This document shows, one piece after another, positions 18,120 through 27,434 of a DNA stretch of 41,224 bases; position 1 is the stretch's first letter; each line of letters starts with the position of its first letter. Location: positions 1-41,224 of the forward strand of contig CALVWX010000014.1 of NCBI GenBank assembly GCA_944368215.1, given 5' to 3'. This stretch comes from an uncultured Clostridia bacterium. GTDB lineage: Bacteria > Bacillota > Clostridia > Christensenellales > Borkfalkiaceae. The notes under the pieces were generated by a model. It saw only the letters and a list, made by a program, of their open reading frames with translations. It did no database searches and was not told the origin of the DNA. The position numbers and the translations under genes are program-made.

Positions 18120-21100
18120 TTACTTTTTGCTTACGTCCTTTACGAGGCCTTCTTCGATGAGTTCTTCGATGGTTTCGTAAGGATACATTGCAGCGTAGTC
18201 GCGCTCCGCAATTTCACGCTTTACGCCGTCCCGCTTTGCGAGCATGATATCGATGAGCCTTATGGCCTTCTTCACGCCGCGGGGGCTCTTGATTTTGACC
18301 ATCATGGGCGTGCCGTGCATGGACTTGTTATCCGATACGTCGACCTGATGGTAAACGCTGGTTGCAAACTCGTTGGGGTCGAGAGCGAGGTACAGACACA
18401 GCGTCTTGCCGCGTATCTTGAAGCGCGCGATTGTTTCGCGGCCCTTATTGAAGCGCTCGGCGCCCCATGCGATGTTTGAATTTACCTTCTTGTATGCGAG
18501 CAGAGCGTTCTTGACCTGTCCGTAATACGTCTTCTGTTCATCCGTGCTCTGGATAATCCTTGCAATGAACGAACGGTTGTACTTCATCATGTTGGCGAAG
18601 TCTACGCCGCTGTTGGATATTCCCGGTATGCCGTCGGGCATTATTTCGCCTTCGGAGGGTGTTTCGTCTATTTCGTCGACTATCTCGCCTATAACCTCGT
18701 CCTCTTCGGCGGGCTCTTCGGCGCTCTCTTCAACTATGTCGCTTACGGTTACGAGCTCTTCATCCTCTTCCGCAGGCTGTTCCGCAACCTCTTCTGCGAC
18801 CTCTTCTGCCGCTTCTTCGGCTACTTCTTCAGGTTGCTCTTCTTCGGCCGCCTCCTCTGCGGGTTCTTCCGAATACTCTTCGGACTCTTCGGCGGTCTCC
18901 TCCAGATGCTCTTCGGCGTTTTCGTCCGACTGTTCGTCGGCAAATTCCGCGAGGTCGCCGGCTTCGTCTTCGCCGTAAGTTTCTGTTACCTCTTCGACGA
19001 CTTCTTCGGGCGTTTCCTCAACGATTTCCTCGCCAATCTGCCCGGGCTGCTCTTCGGCAACTTCCTCTTCGCAGGCTTCGGCCGCGGCGGGAGCGAGCTC
19101 TTCCTCGGCAACCTTGGTGATTACGCCCGCGGCGAGCATTGCCTTTATTTCTTCTATCTGCTTCTGAATGTCTTCTATGCGCTTGTCATATTCACCCGCA
19201 ACCTTTTCGGCAACGCGGTCTGTGATATGTTCTACGCCGTCTTCGTCGAGGACGATATCGATATCCTCTTCCTTTTCGGGCGCGGGCTCGCTGACGAGAG
19301 CTTTGAGCTCGGCTATATCGCATTCGAGCTTGTTAAAGTATTCTTCATATCCCGCGGTGACGTTGGAAGCTACGGCGTTCATACCCTCTTCGTCGACGAC
19401 TATGTCGCGGTCGGCGGCGAGTTCTTCCTTAAGCTTTTCAACGATGGAATTTATTATCGTCTCGCTGTCGACCTCTGCGGCGGGTATGCCCGCGGCGACT
19501 TTTTCGGCTATGGCTGAGCTGATGGCGTTCATGCCCTCTTCGTCGAGGAGCACGTCGCTCTCTGCCGCAAGCTCTTCCTTCAACTTGTCTGTTACAATGT
19601 CGCGGTCGGCAACAATCTCTTCCTTAATCCTTTCGACGATGGAGTTGACAATGGCCTCGCTGTCTATCTCCGCAACGGGTGCGGAAACCTTTTCGGCCAC
19701 GGCCGAGCTTATTGCGTTTACGCCGTCCTCATCGACGACTATTTCGCGGTCGGCAACGAGTTCTTCTTTGAGTTTATCGTATACGGCGGCGCTTATGCCG
19801 GTTACGCCGTCTTCGTCGATTACTATATCGCGGTCGGCGGCGAGCTCTGCGCACAGCCTTTCGGATACGGCTTCGCTTATCTTGCCGAGGCCGTCTTCAT
19901 CGATTACTATGTCGTAATCGCTGTCGCTCTGGTTTTCGACTATCTTCTGCGCGACGGCCGAAGCTATGCCGTCGGTGTCTATCTCTGCTGCGGGGATGGC
20001 TGCCGCAACCTTTTCTGCGATTTCGTCGGTATCTATTTCGGGAAGGTAATTGGAGAGCACCGCGGCGGCCTTGTCTGCAAGGACGTCTTCGCTGACGTGT
20101 TCGACGTTGAGTTTTTCCGAAATGAGGCGGGCGATTTCTTCGCTGTCTACGTCCTGACCGCCGATAGTTGCCGCGAGCTTTTCGGCGACGGCGGAGGAAA
20201 TGGCGTCGTAATCGAGCTTGCTTTCCACAGCCTTGGCCAGCGAATCGCAGCCGTCTTCGTCGACCATGACGTCGAACTGTTCGGGGGAGATGGTTCCCAC
20301 CTGCTTTGCGATGCGGTCGGCGATTTCTTCGCTGTCTACGTTGATGTCTATTCTCTCTGCGAGGGCGTCTGCCACCTTGTCGGCAATGGCCTGCTCGTCG
20401 ACGGTCACTCCGACATTTTCGGGAATGACAATCTTTTCCGCGATGCGGTCGGCAACCGCCTGCTCGTCTGCAGGCGCGCCCGTGAGCTGTTCGGCAACCT
20501 TGGACGCTATGTAATCTGCCGAAACGATTTCCTGTGCGGGAAGGTTATCGGCGAGCTTTTTGGAGAGTTCTTCATAGTCGAGGTCTTCGACTATGGCCTG
20601 AGGTATGTAGAGGCGCTCGGCAACTTTTTGCGCGAGGTCGGCATAATCTATTTCGGGAGTGCCGACGATGAGTTTTGACGCGACTTTGTCTGCAAGGGCG
20701 TCGTAATCGATATCCTCGACTATCGCGGAGGGTATGTACATATTTTCGACGACTTTGGCGCCGAGTTCGTCGTAGTCGACGACGGCCTGCCGGGAGGGAA
20801 GGCGCTTTGCGACTTCGTCGGCGAGTGTTTCGTAATCGACTTCGTTATTGCCGGGAACGATTATTTTGTCGGCAACCTTTGCGGCGAGTTCGTCAAGGTC
20901 GATTTTGAACTCTGCGGGCCGGGCTTCGGCGGCCGTTTTGGTAGCGTCGCGGTACATGCTCTGAACCTGCGCGGAGAGATATTCAATCTCTTCTTTAAGC
21001 TCCTTTTTGTCGGCCTCCATCTTGAGCATGATGGCTTCCCTGTCCATGTCCCTGTCGATAGCCGAATCGATGACTTCCTGCACCTTTGCGTCGACGGCTT

Positions 21101-21383
21101 TGTTCTGGGCGGAGAGCGCGTCAAAATTGCGCTGAATCTCCTTACCCTGCGCGGACAGCTGGGCTATGCGCTTGCCTACCGCATCGTTGACCTGGGAAAT
21201 TTTAGCGACATTGGCGCTTACCGAGTTTGACTGCTGGGCGATCTGCGCCACCACGGTCTGGTTCTGCCTGGCGAGCTGTTCGACCTTTGCGTCAAGCGTT
21301 CTGTTTTGTTGAGCCAGCTTATCGACCTTGGTTAAGAGAAGGTCGGCCTTGGTCTGACCCGAACCGTTGTTGTTTACACCCAT
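18120..21383 (-). CDS. 1087-residue coiled-coil/tandem-repeat protein of unknown function
   Basis: I do not recognise the whole protein. Regions: 1-145, a coiled coil rich in Gln, Ala, Asn and Lys; ~160-730, more than 20 tandem units of the pattern D-Y/S/E-x-x-L/I-A-x-K-V-A-x-x-L (e.g. DYDALADKVASKL at 227-239, DYADLAQKVAERL at 247-259), starting 20-23 residues apart in the first part and in the later part often opened by D-I-V-x-DEDG (seven copies); ~755-905, a Glu/Ala-rich acidic tract; ~930-1087, a basic, mixed alpha/beta C-terminal domain with SFIARIIQS, RGKTLCLYLALDP and YHQVDVSD, which resembles a C-terminal module I have seen in other Clostridia proteins of unknown role. No signal peptide or membrane helix, so cytoplasmic. 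AGGTG precedes the ATG. A filament, scaffold or tether is inference only. Confidence 0.85.
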   Translation of the reverse strand: MGVNNNGSGQTKADLLLTKVDKLAQQNRTLDAKVEQLARQNQTVVAQIAQQSNSVSANVAKISQVNDAVGKRIAQLSAQGKEIQRNFDALSAQNKAVDAKVQEVIDSAIDRDMDREAIMLKMEADKKELKEEIEYLSAQVQSMYRDATKTAAEARPAEFKIDLDELAAKVADKIIVPGNNEVDYETLADEVAKRLPSRQAVVDYDELGAKVVENMYIPSAIVEDIDYDALADKVASKLIVGTPEIDYADLAQKVAERLYIPQAIVEDLDYEELSKKLADNLPAQEIVSADYIASKVAEQLTGAPADEQAVADRIAEKIVIPENVGVTVDEQAIADKVADALAERIDINVDSEEIADRIAKQVGTISPEQFDVMVDEDGCDSLAKAVESKLDYDAISSAVAEKLAATIGGQDVDSEEIARLISEKLNVEHVSEDVLADKAAAVLSNYLPEIDTDEIAEKVAAAIPAAEIDTDGIASAVAQKIVENQSDSDYDIVIDEDGLGKISEAVSERLCAELAADRDIVIDEDGVTGISAAVYDKLKEELVADREIVVDEDGVNAISSAVAEKVSAPVAEIDSEAIVNSIVERIKEEIVADRDIVTDKLKEELAAESDVLLDEEGMNAISSAIAEKVAAGIPAAEVDSETIINSIVEKLKEELAADRDIVVDEEGMNAVASNVTAGYEEYFNKLECDIAELKALVSEPAPEKEEDIDIVLDEDGVEHITDRVAEKVAGEYDKRIEDIQKQIEEIKAMLAAGVITKVAEEELAPAAAEACEEEVAEEQPGQIGEEIVEETPEEVVEEVTETYGEDEAGDLAEFADEQSDENAEEHLEETAEESEEYSEEPAEEAAEEEQPEEVAEEAAEEVAEEVAEQPAEEDEELVTVSDIVEESAEEPAEEDEVIGEIVDEIDETPSEGEIMPDGIPGISNSGVDFANMMKYNRSFIARIIQSTDEQKTYYGQVKNALLAYKKVNSNIAWGAERFNKGRETIARFKIRGKTLCLYLALDPNEFATSVYHQVDVSDNKSMHGTPMMVKIKSPRGVKKAIRLIDIMLAKRDGVKREIAERDYAAMYPYETIEELIEEGLVKDVSKK

Positions 21384-21866: not shown

Positions 21867-22940
21867 ATGAGAGTTTACAATTTTTCGGCGGGGCCTTCCA
21901 CCCTGCCCCTTGACGTGCTTAAACAGGCGCAGGAAGAGTTTCTGGATTTTGCGGGCACGGGCATGTCGGTTACCGAAATTTCACACAGAGACAAAGCATT
22001 CGAAGCCGTGGTGCGCGAAGCGGAGAGCCTTACGCGCGAACTTTTGGGCGTGCCCGACGATTACGCCGTGATTTTTGTGCAGGGCGGAGCTTCCACCCAG
22101 TTCGCCGCGGTGCCCCTGAACCTTATGCACGGCGGCAAGGCCGATTACATAGTTACCGGCAACTTTGCAAAAAAGGCATGGCAGGAAGGACAGATTTACG
22201 GCGAGGCCGTAAAGATAGGCGATTCTTCCGACAAAGTTTACACCTACATACCCGACGTGGATAAATTAAATTACAGCCCCGGCGCCGATTACGTGCACAT
22301 AACATCGAACAACACCATATTCGGCACGCGGTATGCAAAATTCCCCGAATGCAAGGCGCCGCTGGTTGCAGACATGTCGTCCGAAATTTTTTCGCGCGAG
22401 ATAGACGTTTCTAAGTTCGGCGTGATATATGCGGGCGCGCAGAAAAACCTCGCCCCCGCGGGCGTGACGATTGTCATTGCAAAGCGCGACCTCATTCAGG
22501 ATCCATTGAAGATTTGCCCAACCATGCTCAGGTGGAAGGTGCAAGACGAAAACGGTTCGCTGTACAATACTCCCCCGGCTTTCTCCATTTACATGGCCAA
22601 TCTCGTGCTGCGCGACCTCAAGAAAAAGGGAGGCGTAAAAGCCATGAACGAGGTTGACACCTACAAGGCGGGGCTGCTTTACGACTTTATAGACAACTCC
22701 TCCTTCTACAAAAACAACGTCGTACCCGAGTTCCGTTCGATAATGAACGTGCCCTTTGTTACGGGCGACGCTGACACGGACGCAAAATTCGTGGCGGAGG
22801 CCAAAAAGGCGGGCCTCGTTTCGCTTAAAGGCCACAGGCTGGTCGGCGGCATGAGGGCTTCCATATACAACGCCATGCCCGTGGAAGGCGTGAAGGCGCT
22901 TATTGAGTTTATGAAGAAATTCGAACTGGAGAACGCGTGA
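21867..22940 (+). CDS. serC: Phosphoserine aminotransferase
   Basis: 357 residues, normal for SerC (~360). Starts MRVYNFSAGPSTLPLDVL; shows TEISHRDKAFEAVV, VQGGASTQFAAVP, TSNNTIFGT, and YAGAQKNLAPAG with PLP-binding Lys193. It transfers the amino group of glutamate to 3-phosphohydroxypyruvate. AAAGGAG precedes the ATG. serA begins one base after the stop. The missing third enzyme, phosphoserine phosphatase (serB), is not in this window. The neighbouring GS-GOGAT genes supply the glutamate donor. Confidence 0.97.
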   Translation: MRVYNFSAGPSTLPLDVLKQAQEEFLDFAGTGMSVTEISHRDKAFEAVVREAESLTRELLGVPDDYAVIFVQGGASTQFAAVPLNLMHGGKADYIVTGNFAKKAWQEGQIYGEAVKIGDSSDKVYTYIPDVDKLNYSPGADYVHITSNNTIFGTRYAKFPECKAPLVADMSSEIFSREIDVSKFGVIYAGAQKNLAPAGVTIVIAKRDLIQDPLKICPTMLRWKVQDENGSLYNTPPAFSIYMANLVLRDLKKKGGVKAMNEVDTYKAGLLYDFIDNSSFYKNNVVPEFRSIMNVPFVTGDADTDAKFVAEAKKAGLVSLKGHRLVGGMRASIYNAMPVEGVKALIEFMKKFELENA

Positions 22941-22941
22941 C

Positions 22942-24099
22942 ATGAAAGGAATACTTAAATTAAACGCCATAAGCCCGCTGGCGGACCCCATTTTTGCGGG
23001 CTATGAATACGGCGGCGACGTTAAAAATCCCGCAGGAATAATGGTGCGCTCGGCGGCCATGGCCGACTACCCCGCCGGCGACAATCTGCTCGCCGTTGCG
23101 CGCGCAGGCGCGGGCACAAATAACATACCCGTGGCCGAATACGCAAAAAAGGGCATAGTCGTTTTCAATACGCCGGGCGCCAACGCAAACGCCGTAAAAG
23201 AACTTGTTATATGCGAGCTGTTTCTGGGCGGCAGGAAGATAACCGAAGCCATCGACTGGGTAAAGACGCTCAAGGGCGAAGGCGACGCCGTAGGCAAACT
23301 CGTGGAAAAAGGCAAGGGCAAATTTGCCGGCCCCGAAATTGCAGGCAAAACGCTGGGCGTGATAGGTCTGGGCGCCATAGGCATTATGGTTGCAAACGCC
23401 GCCAAGGCGCTTGGTATGAAGGTTGTGGGCGCAGACCCCTTCCTTTCGACGCACAACGCGCTTTTGATAGACCCCGCAGTCGAAGTTGTGCAGGACAACG
23501 CGGAAGTTTACAAGCGCGCGGATTTTATAACCGTGCACGTACCCCTCACCCCACAGACCAAGGGCATGTTCAACAAGCAGACGATATCTTCGTGCAAGGA
23601 CGGGGTTGTGATTATAAACAATTCGCGCGGCGAGCTTGCAGACACGGCCGACATTATAGCCGCGCTTGAAAGCGGCAAGATTGCGAGGTATATAACCGAC
23701 TTCCCCACGGCCGACCTTATAGGCGTTGACGGCGCAATATGCGTGCCCCATCTGGGCGCGAGCACGCCCGAAGCCGAGGACAACTGCGCCGTGATGGCAG
23801 CGAGACAGCTGACCGATTACATTGAAAACGGCAACATAACAAATTCGGTAAACTACCCCGCCGTCAGCGCCGCGCGCGAAGGCAAAGCGCGCATATGCGT
23901 ATGCCACATGAACGTGGCCAACATGATAGCGCAGTTTGCGGCCGCCGTTTCGGCAAAGGGCATAAACATAGCCAACATGGTGGATAAAGCCAAGGGCGAG
24001 TACGCCTACTGCTTACTCGATATCGACGGCGACGCCGACGAAGAGGTCGTCGGCAATATCCAAAAGATTGACGGCGTAATAAGGGTGCGCGTCGTGTGA
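22942..24099 (+). CDS. serA: D-3-phosphoglycerate dehydrogenase, short ACT-containing form
   Basis: 385 residues. Rossmann motif VIGLGAIGIMVANAAKALG (140-158); catalytic triad residues Arg229 (NNSRGELAD), acidic residue near 253 and His270 in PHLGASTPEAEDN. The C-terminal ~70 residues (from ARICVCHMN, 317 on) are an ACT domain. The intervening ASB domain of long SerA proteins is absent, so this is the shorter type. It oxidises 3-phosphoglycerate with NAD+, the first step to serine. GGAG inside the serC end serves as ribosome binding site. A strong terminator follows. ACT-mediated serine feedback is likely from family knowledge. Confidence 0.96.
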   Translation: MKGILKLNAISPLADPIFAGYEYGGDVKNPAGIMVRSAAMADYPAGDNLLAVARAGAGTNNIPVAEYAKKGIVVFNTPGANANAVKELVICELFLGGRKITEAIDWVKTLKGEGDAVGKLVEKGKGKFAGPEIAGKTLGVIGLGAIGIMVANAAKALGMKVVGADPFLSTHNALLIDPAVEVVQDNAEVYKRADFITVHVPLTPQTKGMFNKQTISSCKDGVVIINNSRGELADTADIIAALESGKIARYITDFPTADLIGVDGAICVPHLGASTPEAEDNCAVMAARQLTDYIENGNITNSVNYPAVSAAREGKARICVCHMNVANMIAQFAAAVSAKGINIANMVDKAKGEYAYCLLDIDGDADEEVVGNIQKIDGVIRVRVV

Positions 24100-24955: not shown

Positions 24956-26101
24956 TTACAATAATATGCAGATGACCCCTCCCTTGCCCTCGTTGACAAT
25001 GCGCGTTATGGCCTTGCGCATCTTTGCGCGGGTGTCGTCCTGCATGCTGTTGACCTTACCCGCCAGCCCCTCCTGCACCATTGTGCGGAGCGACTTGCCG
25101 AAAAGGTTTGTGTTCCACATAGCCTGCGGGTCGCTTTCGAACCCGTTCATAATCTCCCCCACCATTCCTTCGGACTGCGCGGCCGAGCCCATTATGGGAC
25201 TGACTTCTCCGCAGACGTCGACTTTGACTATGTGATAGCTTGGTGCGGTGGCCTTTAATTTGACCCCGACATTGGAACCCTGACGCACGACGACGGGTTT
25301 TTCGAGGCTTAAATCGTCATCGGAAGGCCGCACCACCCCGTAGCCCGTGACCTTTGCGCATTCGAGCGCGTCCTTTACCTTGTCATAATTTTTGCGCGCC
25401 TGCGACGCCGTGACGACAAAGGACATGAGAGAGCTTTCGTCAGAAATATCCTCTCCGGCCGTCTCCGAAAGCATGGAAAAGAAGGCGCCGTCCTTAATTT
25501 TTGCGCGGACGACCGCCCTGCCCGAGGCGGGAAAAATTTCGAGGGAAACGTCGGGCTGCCAGTTGTCGCTATGTGCGAGCAGTTCGCTCAGCGCCGGGCA
25601 ATCGGCCATGGTGTTTACCGAAGGCGCGGCGGCGCGCACGGCGGCGCAGAGCTCCGCGACGGCGGAATTTTCGGCGGGGAGAGCGCGCACCCACGACGGA
25701 ATTATCACGTCTATCGCCGCGACGGGAAAGGCGAACAGAAGCGCGCGCATTACTCCGTCGAAGCCGGCGGACGACAGGGCGGAAACATCCGCCCGCACGG
25801 CGGGCGCACCGCATTCCGAAGAGAGCGCGGAATCGTCCGATGCGGTTACGATTACGAAAGGCAGGCCTTTTTTGCGCAAGCCGTCCGCCAAAGCGGCAGT
25901 CTGCCCGGGCGCACCCCCGTCGACCAGAACGGCGGCGTTGCAGTCTTCGGCGCCGTCGCAAAATGTAAGGCCCGACTGTTCCGCACCGACAAAATCGCTG
26001 AAAATAACGGCGCGCGCTTCCCCGTCGGCGCACACAACCCCGACGCGCGCCCTTCCGCCGCACCTTTCGGTTATATCATTATATATACTGTCGTTTAGCA
26101 T
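24956..26101 (-). CDS. spoIVA: SpoIVA-like protein lacking the ATPase P-loop
   Basis: 381 residues from ATG 26101-26099 (GGGAGG six bases upstream); the open frame upstream of it is not coding. The middle and C-terminal regions match SpoIVA, the ATPase that builds the spore coat basement layer: FPVAAIDVIIPSWV (125-138), TGYGVVRPS, DDLSLEKPVVVRQGSNVGVKLKA, APSYHIVKVDV, SDPQAMWNTNLFGKSL and the end RIVNEGKGGVICILL. The first 22 residues also align (NDITERCGGRARVGVV), but the Walker A loop that should follow (GxxxxGKS/T) is CADGEARAV, and roughly 90 residues holding the Walker B/switch part are missing, compared with ~492 residues in B. subtilis from memory. No frameshift signs, so it is a stable shortened form. 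A second, full SpoIVA elsewhere cannot be excluded. Confidence 0.85.
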   Translation of the reverse strand: MLNDSIYNDITERCGGRARVGVVCADGEARAVIFSDFVGAEQSGLTFCDGAEDCNAAVLVDGGAPGQTAALADGLRKKGLPFVIVTASDDSALSSECGAPAVRADVSALSSAGFDGVMRALLFAFPVAAIDVIIPSWVRALPAENSAVAELCAAVRAAAPSVNTMADCPALSELLAHSDNWQPDVSLEIFPASGRAVVRAKIKDGAFFSMLSETAGEDISDESSLMSFVVTASQARKNYDKVKDALECAKVTGYGVVRPSDDDLSLEKPVVVRQGSNVGVKLKATAPSYHIVKVDVCGEVSPIMGSAAQSEGMVGEIMNGFESDPQAMWNTNLFGKSLRTMVQEGLAGKVNSMQDDTRAKMRKAITRIVNEGKGGVICILL

Positions 26102-26187
26102 AAGTTTCCTCCCTGTGAGCTGGTGTATAATAGCATATTTGCGCGGAGGGAAAATTATGACGGATTTTTGCGGCGGGCTTAATGCGC

Positions 26188-26246: not shown

Positions 26247-27434
26247 TTATCTGCACTCGGTTGTGAAGGCGTAAAATTCGTCTACTTCTTCCTTCGTATC
26301 GAAATTTGCGACGAACATTCTGTCCCCCATCGCGCCCGAAAGCGCCTTTGCCACGCGCTGGGCGATTTTCATGTTAGAGGCGTAGCGGCCGTAAATTTCG
26401 TCGTCGCCGTGAACATAGGGCTTGCCGTCCCTGCGGCCGACGAATGCGCAGTAATACCTTCTGCCCGTGTCCTTGTACAATTTGTCGAACGCAATCATAT
26501 CCGCCCAGATTTTGTAGACGTCGGTGGAATTGGCGTAATTCATCATCTCGGGCGAGATGCCGCCCGAAGGGCGCATGTTGACTTCAAGCGCGACGATTTC
26601 GCCCTTTTTGCCTATGGGCTGGTCGCGGTTGAGGCGGAAAAATTCAAAGTGGATAAAGCGCGATTTTACGCCGAAGGCCTTTAATGCCCTACGCCCCGCG
26701 TCGCGCACATCGTCGAAGGGGCGGTTGACTATGTAGAACATGGAGCTGTCGCCCGTGTTGACCACATCCATAAGGGAACCGAGGGTGACGTTGCCCGTTT
26801 CGAAGATGGGGTTGCCCTTGCTGTCGACGATGGCGTCGTAGGAATTGACGGTGGCGTCGATATATTCTTCCATTATGTAACTGATGGGCAGTTTTATAGC
26901 GAAAAACCTGTTTAAATCCTCGTCCGAGCACAGCCTGTGCGTGTCGCTTGCGCCCACGCCGTTATCGGGCTTGACTATTACGGGGTAGCCGACCTCGGCA
27001 ATGAACTGTTTGCAGACTTCGGGCGAGGAGGCGAGGCAATAGCGCGCCGTTTTTATGCCCGCCGCACGGTAACAGGGCTTCATGGCGGATTTCAACTTGA
27101 CCTTCTGCATATCGCAGTCGTGAAAACCCGTGGTAATGTTGAACTCCGTCCTCAAGTGTGCGTCGCGCTCGAGCCAGTATTCGTTGTTGCTTTCAAGCCA
27201 GTCTATCTTGCCGTAGCGGAAGGTGTAAAATGCGACGGCGCGAAAAACTTCGTCGTAATTTTCAAGACTGGAGACCTTGTAATATTCGGTGAGGCTGCTC
27301 TTTAATTCGGGCAGCAGATTGAAGTATTCGCAGTCGCCTATGCCTAAAACGTTGAAGCCGTTATCCTTTAAATGGCGGCAGAAGTGCCAGTAATTTTCGG
27401 GAAAGTTGGGCGAGATAAATATAAAATTTTTCAT
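26247..27434 (-). CDS. ATP-grasp ligase of unknown substrate (carbamoyl-phosphate-synthase-like fold)
   Basis: 395 residues. N-terminal pre-ATP-grasp region starts MKNFIFISPNFPENYW. The ATP-grasp core shows GYPVIVKPDNGVGASDTHRL (about 155-175), IMEEYIDATVNSYDAIVD, and the metal/phosphate site EIVALEVNMRPSGGISPEMM near 285-305. Such enzymes join a carboxylate to an amine through an acyl phosphate. The N-terminus resembles peptide- or amino-acid-ligating members, but the substrate cannot be read from the sequence. AGGAAC lies four bases before the ATG. It ends in its own terminator; the promoter region holds a G-rich inverted repeat. It is distinct from the RimK-like ligase at 5044-5928. Confidence 0.8.
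   Translation of the reverse strand: MKNFIFISPNFPENYWHFCRHLKDNGFNVLGIGDCEYFNLLPELKSSLTEYYKVSSLENYDEVFRAVAFYTFRYGKIDWLESNNEYWLERDAHLRTEFNITTGFHDCDMQKVKLKSAMKPCYRAAGIKTARYCLASSPEVCKQFIAEVGYPVIVKPDNGVGASDTHRLCSDEDLNRFFAIKLPISYIMEEYIDATVNSYDAIVDSKGNPIFETGNVTLGSLMDVVNTGDSSMFYIVNRPFDDVRDAGRRALKAFGVKSRFIHFEFFRLNRDQPIGKKGEIVALEVNMRPSGGISPEMMNYANSTDVYKIWADMIAFDKLYKDTGRRYYCAFVGRRDGKPYVHGDDEIYGRYASNMKIAQRVAKALSGAMGDRMFVANFDTKEEVDEFYAFTTECR

Follow-up and report, generated by a model that had tools for sequence, protein, structure and literature searches.

The window, i.e., the whole stretch of 41,224 nucleotides that was analysed, belongs to a genome (G000) of 1.67 Mb in 46 contigs that is 91.8% complete, and its organism is a gut bacterium of the genus Candidatus Coproplasma, which we take to belong to the Borkfalkiaceae. 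On the minus strand of the window an open frame runs from an ATG at 26101 to a stop codon at 24956 and encodes a SpoIVA protein. The features of the locus are the following:

24956..26101, minus strand: spoIVA ortholog without the ATPase motifs (381 aa; the span includes the stop codon)
25724..26101, minus strand: residues 1-126, what remains of the SpoIVA ATPase domain, predicted to fold as an alpha/beta domain and devoid of P-loop, sensor-T and Walker B (alignment and AF2 model)
26006..26041, minus strand: residues 21-32, GVVCADGEARAV, facing GVVGPVRTGKS of the canonical congeners (alignment)
25187..25723, minus strand: residues 127-305, SpoIVA_middle, PF20438 (Pfam)
24959..25183, minus strand: residues 307-381, SpoIVA_C, PF20439, ending in NEGKGGVICILL (Pfam)
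26108..26113, minus strand: ribosome-binding site GGGAGG, 6 bases 5' of the ATG (sequence)
26124..26139, minus strand: promoter-like block AATATGCTATTATACA, of a kind also present at canonical spoIVA genes (comparison of upstream regions)
26247..27434, minus strand: ATP-grasp-like gene, which canonical relatives and P-loop-less ones alike carry upstream of spoIVA (synteny; Pfam match below cut-off)
21867..24099, plus strand: serC- and serA-like genes, which flank spoIVA at its opposite end in many relatives (synteny; names by reading)

The analysis of the protein bears out an earlier note, made on the letters of this DNA, that had described a SpoIVA homologue of 381 residues without P-loop whose C-terminal two thirds resemble SpoIVA. 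Both downstream domains are intact, the match extending over positions 1-179 of the 179 of SpoIVA_middle (E 9.4e-46) and 2-76 of the 76 of SpoIVA_C (E 1.2e-26), and the C-terminus is kept across the alignment of relatives. SpoIVA_ATPase (PF09547) gives no match in the protein at E up to 10, and the full-length model TIGR02836 is matched only from position 204 to 492 of 492, with 245.5 bits, below its equivalog cut-off of 459.9. Alignment with the canonical Coproplasma proteins (489-492 aa) shows that the protein keeps the start helix and first strand, its first 23 residues or so matching (22 had been claimed), and that it lacks the Walker A motif, the sensor-T block (MTTEPKF) and Walker B (DCVG). 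As had been proposed, Walker A is replaced, GVVCADGEARAV standing at its site; the pattern [AG]xxxxGK[ST] occurs nowhere in the protein. The claimed loss of the Walker B/switch region also stands, its extent being somewhat larger than the 90 residues or so first estimated: the window protein falls short of a canonical sister of 490 aa by 109 residues, which are missing from the N-terminal half.

Searched with phmmer against the PDB sequences, the window protein had no match at E up to 1. Its AF2 model (mean pLDDT 86, pTM 0.66) has a small alpha/beta N-domain that matches no PDB structure at E <= 0.001; among the best 50 of 1109 PDB matches most are SIS-type and receiver-type folds and none is named a GTPase, a comparison that a shortened GTPase fold could escape. 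The predicted structure of a canonical congener (pLDDT 78), which is poor in the sensor-T region, has 154 PDB matches at E <= 0.001, those listed being mostly Ras-type and other GTPases. We read the predicted N-domain of the window protein as what is left of the TRAFAC-type ATPase domain, a small alpha/beta stub that has lost its P-loop.

The profile search of the window's genome disclosed one SpoIVA_middle match, the window gene itself, and no SpoIVA_ATPase match anywhere in the 91.8% of the genome that is represented. In the relatives with long enough stretches, the ATP-grasp-like, hydrolase, PanE-like, serA-like and serC-like genes usually adjoin spoIVA, whether or not it has a P-loop. The closest canonical proteins, i.e., those of the sister genomes G122 and G134 (loci L160 and L159), share the window's locus, are 56% identical to the window protein and adjoin its clade both in the SpoIVA tree and in the tree of neighbouring genes described below; they keep GPVRTGKS, MTTEPKF and DCVG, whereas the window protein lacks all three. 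On the basis of the single SpoIVA_middle match, the missing ATPase domain and the canonical locus, the window gene is a true spoIVA ortholog and not a helper paralog, which contradicts the earlier suggestion of a paralogue working beside an intact SpoIVA. A search of the window's genome for another SpoIVA copy, or for an ATPase domain supplied in trans, found neither; a horizontal gain of spoIVA is unsupported by synteny or by the trees.

Upstream of the gene, the promoter-like block has counterparts of the form AATA..TTATTATACA in the congeners, often with TTCTAAA or GCATAAT about 14 bases before it, in P-loop-less and canonical genes alike. Its core pattern, which was chosen after the sequences had been viewed, is present in 14 of the 27 P-loop-less and 12 of the 24 canonical upstream regions, vs. 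1.4% in shuffles. A promoter of the B. subtilis sigma-E type was considered and set aside, the consensus being matched weakly, in 10/27 upstream regions vs. 13% in shuffles.

The genus was sampled through 93 Coproplasma genomes. SpoIVA_middle is found in 83 of them and a full-length ATPase match in 53 (one of the latter, G200, lacks a middle match). The 83 SpoIVA-bearing genomes comprise 52 canonical ones, 27 without P-loop, two (G160 and G211) that keep the P-loop and neither hydrolysis motif, and two in which a contig end cuts the gene (G174, with a partial ATPase match, and G182, unclassified). The frame reaches the conserved C-terminus in 25/27 P-loop-less cases, the others being G097, which has an in-frame stop near the C-terminus, and G184, cut by a contig end; in G181 the protein is reduced to 265 aa and the whole ATPase domain is missing. 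The loss of the ATPase in Coproplasma is widespread, repeated and graded. Single in-frame stops in otherwise SpoIVA-like frames were observed in G097 (L040, P-loop-less), G157 (L176, canonical; borne out by reading of the DNA) and G114 (L116); they may reflect either decay or errors of assembly.

Another genus in the family (g10) yielded 12 fetched loci, namely three near-full-length ones with GPVRTGKS, six shortened with P-loop and three without, the fetch having favoured short frames, so that these proportions have no meaning; one of the near-full-length proteins (L117) carries deviating letters at the other two motifs. The g10 genomes (G010, G028, G043, G056, G085, G100, G118, G130 and G146) display a parallel erosion of the ATPase, with P-loops that differ between lineages (for instance GAKGAGKT, GADGCGKS or GAAKCGKT), or with none. 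In a draw of 391 genomes from the class, which contains just two Coproplasma (G000 and G007), 287 have SpoIVA_middle and 286 of these have a match to the ATPase domain (the domain matches were scored, rather than the P-loops, and the two lists were compared by reading), the sole exception being the window's genome. In the same draw G311 and G478 are positive for the ATPase domain only, and the ATPase match is partial or weak in G334, G346 and G347.

These counts bear on the possibility that the short gene is an artefact, i.e., the product of an assembly deletion or a short copy lying beside an intact SpoIVA. The genomes appear to be MAGs and that of the window is incomplete, which leaves some room for it; nevertheless, the same kind of change recurs in 27 genomes, intermediate forms exist and the gene is a single copy at the canonical locus, so that such an origin is very improbable. 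As for the assembly deletion in particular, it is unlikely since the P-loop is missing in 27/83 SpoIVA-bearing congeners and the records come from several projects.

The distribution of the P-loop was mapped onto two phylogenetic trees. The first one, constructed on the middle and C-terminal part of SpoIVA with a quick search, contains 108 rows (66 canonical, eight shortened with P-loop, 30 without P-loop and four of unknown state), the rows from other genera being a chosen subset; L059, L070, L093 and L105, whose state is unknown, stand outside the state counts, leaving 104 rows. The P-loop state changes seven times on this tree. A single origin of the 27 P-loop-less Coproplasma rows is rejected (p-AU 7e-12), as is the union of the two large P-loop-less groups (24 rows, p-AU 2.6e-5), a grouping that was named after the tree had been viewed. 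The second tree was constructed on five neighbouring proteins (1810 columns) under a simpler model, with midpoint root and quick search, and embeds 57 of 81 loci (31 with P-loop, two intermediate and 24 without), the other 24 having been dropped because they covered less than 40% of the columns. Here the state changes four times and one origin is again rejected (p-AU 8e-24). The intermediate L182 (G160), which keeps its P-loop, is the sister of L163 (G073), which has none. The window falls into a group with eight further rows that lack the P-loop, next to the canonical L159 and L160. The P-loop has thus been lost repeatedly; change counts alone are blind to the direction, gain or loss, and a regain is thought unlikely.

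The forms existing today also suggest an order of events. A P-loop accompanied by neither the MTTEP nor the DCVG pattern is found in nine sequences, that is the eight shortened forms (G160, G211 and six of g10) and L117, whereas the hydrolysis motifs without P-loop are found only in L002, L020 and L105 (contig end), L116 (in-frame stop) and L113 (a chance DAVG). Since P-loop-only forms exist and the true reverse is not seen, the hydrolysis motifs appear to have been lost first, before nucleotide binding.

The selective constraint was estimated on 23 of the 27 P-loop-less and on 25 canonical sequences, whose synonymous sites are near saturation. The ratio of pN between the N-domain and the middle and C-terminal part is 1.78 in the P-loop-less and 0.98 in the canonical set, the former value being open to inflation by the poor alignment of the remnant. 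For the middle and C-terminal part, dN/dS in the 14 listed least-diverged pairs of each kind ranges from 0.14 to 0.38 in P-loop-less and from 0.04 to 0.25 in canonical forms (0.12-0.25 for the latter at like divergence, dS about 0.7-1.0). According to these values the middle and C-terminal part is under constraint in the P-loop-less forms, perhaps slightly less than in the canonical ones.

A sporulation gene set is present in the window's genome, where the profile search disclosed SpoIIGA, SigE, SigG, SigF, SpoIIAB, SpoVT and a SpoVB-like protein; the gene for a STAS-domain protein precedes those for SpoIIAB and SigF. One SigE model and SpoIIAB score above the NCBIfam cut-offs and SpoIIGA above that of Pfam; SigF, SigG and SpoVT are clear best matches, yet under the equivalog cut-offs. 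Two copies of SpoVAC/SpoVAEB are above the cut-off, and SipL is represented by a protein with two SPOCS domains, whose C-terminal LysM-like stretch (LysM by eye; Pfam made no such call) is closely similar to that of the canonical G134. Thus, three of the genes that the earlier note had proposed to look for, sigE, sigG and sipL, are present in the genome; for another, spoVM, which encodes a protein of 26 aa that is easily missed, the 93 Coproplasma genomes contain nothing above the cut-off and five weak matches below it, the B. subtilis control being positive. Across the genus, strong SigG matches (E < 1e-60, a limit set after inspecting the match list) are found in 24/27 P-loop-less vs. 48/53 canonical genomes, and SpoVA in 26/27 vs. 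51/53 (85/93 overall), so that both are retained about equally; the retention of SipL is somewhat lower (21/27 vs. 48/53). Apparent breaks in SigF (G116, G139, G157 and G213) and SigG (G205) were rejected, as the stops fall upstream of the genes, no further in than where the match begins, and the genes are not broken.

Alpha/beta SASPs (PF00269) and the SASP-degrading protease GPR (PF03418) were each detected in 0/93 Coproplasma genomes, canonical ones included, with positive B. subtilis controls. The genus therefore combines a SpoVA-bearing sporulation gene set with a lack of detectable SASP and GPR. Since SASP, GPR and SpoVM all go undetected, the genus may not make ordinary spores. The available text of PMC3533761 lists gpr in the column of highest conservation and both the sspA family and spoVM in one of lower conservation; it describes SASP genes as easily lost. 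SpoIVA, strong SigG, SpoVA and SipL are all missing together from G161-G164, which are apparently complete non-sporulators, judging from their gene content. PMC11536998 reports on sporulation genes present in Borkfalkiaceae MAGs; the word spoIVA is absent from its main text.

These data allow for a relaxation of constraint, in which sporulation is decaying in Coproplasma and SpoIVA sheds a domain on its way to being lost, with little or no role in a resistant spore. The lack of SASP and GPR matches, and of any SpoVM match above the cut-off, would fit such a decay, as would the stops in the SpoIVA of G097 and G157, a remnant N-domain that evolves 1.78 times as fast as the rest, the somewhat higher dN/dS of the middle and C-terminal part, SipL being missed in 6/27 vs. 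5/53 genomes, and the existence of G161-G164, which are already without the programme. However, the middle and C-terminal part is still constrained, all but two of the 27 P-loop-less frames extend to the conserved C-terminus, and the frequencies of SpoVA and SigG are about those of the canonical genomes; the losses fall on the ATPase domain, G097 alone also breaking the C-terminal part. Moreover, the absence of SASP and GPR is genus-wide and does not track the loss of the P-loop, and, as G161-G164 lack the whole set, the congeners that lost the programme lost SpoIVA entire. On balance, decay, which is the main rival of the reading preferred below, is rather unlikely.

It is also conceivable that the programme of the genus now yields some internal or coated cell other than the classical dormant spore, with no SASP-packed chromosome, in which the ATPase-less SpoIVA would be reused as a passive shell protein. 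The sigma factors, SpoVA, SipL and SpoIVA are kept and SASP and GPR, a functional pair, are both without a match in the 93 genomes, which speaks for such a reuse. Nevertheless, the retention of SpoVA suggests uptake of dipicolinate, which is a mark of dormant spores; furthermore, divergent SASPs might escape the model, and their genes are among those described as easily lost (PMC3533761, available text). This explanation is regarded as improbable.

The reading preferred here, to which we assign a probability of about 0.6, is that SpoIVA assembles the coat base in an ATP-independent manner within a reduced sporulation programme, spores being presumably formed. The P-loop-less SpoIVA would most likely still form the coat basement on the forespore, its middle and C-terminal domains and the partner SipL providing self-association and anchoring, with no need for binding or hydrolysis of ATP. 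SipL or the curvature of the membrane might take over the ATP-driven step, and SpoIVA without ATPase might be held in an assembly-ready state. In the simplest reading, the genus would have started out with a coat base of the clostridial type, assisted by SipL and already making little use of ATP. The data show the orthology, the missing motifs, the repeated loss, the constraint on the remaining domains and the retention of SipL and of several sporulation regulators, with no second copy found; the production of spores and the polymerisation of SpoIVA in Coproplasma are what we infer. In this way one of the three options of the earlier note, ATP-independent assembly, is favoured, whereas the supporting paralogue falls with the single copy at an orthologous locus.

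SpoIVA is the textbook example of a bacterial scaffold that uses ATP for irreversible polymerisation. The B. subtilis protein, an ATP-hydrolysing coat basement protein of the TRAFAC P-loop class, is like the window protein in the middle and C-terminal profiles, matched over their length; unlike it, the window protein has no Walker A, sensor-T or Walker B. In B. subtilis, binding and hydrolysis of ATP drive conformational changes required for the polymerisation of SpoIVA (available text of PMC7952092). The SpoIVA/SipL pair of C. difficile offers a further likeness, SipL being present in the window's genome: there the ATPase motifs are present and, by mutation, largely dispensable, alanine changes costing only about 3-fold in heat-resistant spores; the cost is about 100-fold when glutamate replaces the Walker A lysine, and ATP-bound SpoIVA is the form to which SipL binds best (available text of PMC7549369), whereas in the window protein the site is gone. 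The small cost of the alanine changes speaks for ATP-independent assembly; the need for hydrolysis in B. subtilis and the SipL preference and glutamate effect in C. difficile weigh against it. The same holds for several observations made above on the genus, i.e., SASP and GPR in none of the 93 genomes, SpoVM not above the cut-off, the SpoIVA stops of G097 and G157, SipL being missed more often in P-loop-less genomes, the somewhat higher dN/dS of P-loop-less pairs and the weak match to the sigma-E consensus.

If ATP-independent assembly is true, evolution, and not mutation, would have produced an ATP-free coat base. The repeated loss of the ATPase with the other two domains kept indicates for which tasks the ATPase may be dispensable. 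A broader statement, that in Coproplasma and g10 SpoIVA has repeatedly been turned into an ATP-independent scaffold, through the loss of hydrolysis, then of the P-loop and, in G181, of the whole domain, against the background of a spore, or of a cell resembling one, in which SASP and GPR go undetected, is possible and is advanced tentatively. The natural series of variants (full, P-loop only, stub, none) lends itself to asking why SpoIVA hydrolyses ATP. In addition, a SpoIVA model scoring below its cut-off cannot simply be taken to mean that there is no SpoIVA, and the failure to detect SASP or GPR anywhere in the genus suggests that its spore programme has been reduced. A literature search by title and start of abstract, with the subscription literature mostly outside its reach, returned no report of a natural SpoIVA without P-loop.

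Finally, the window encodes an acidic protein of 1087 aa at 18123-21383, minus strand, that by eye contains many near-repeats (such as IVIDEDGV..ISSAVAEK) and has no Pfam match at E 0.001; a similar gene is located downstream of spoIVA in many relatives.
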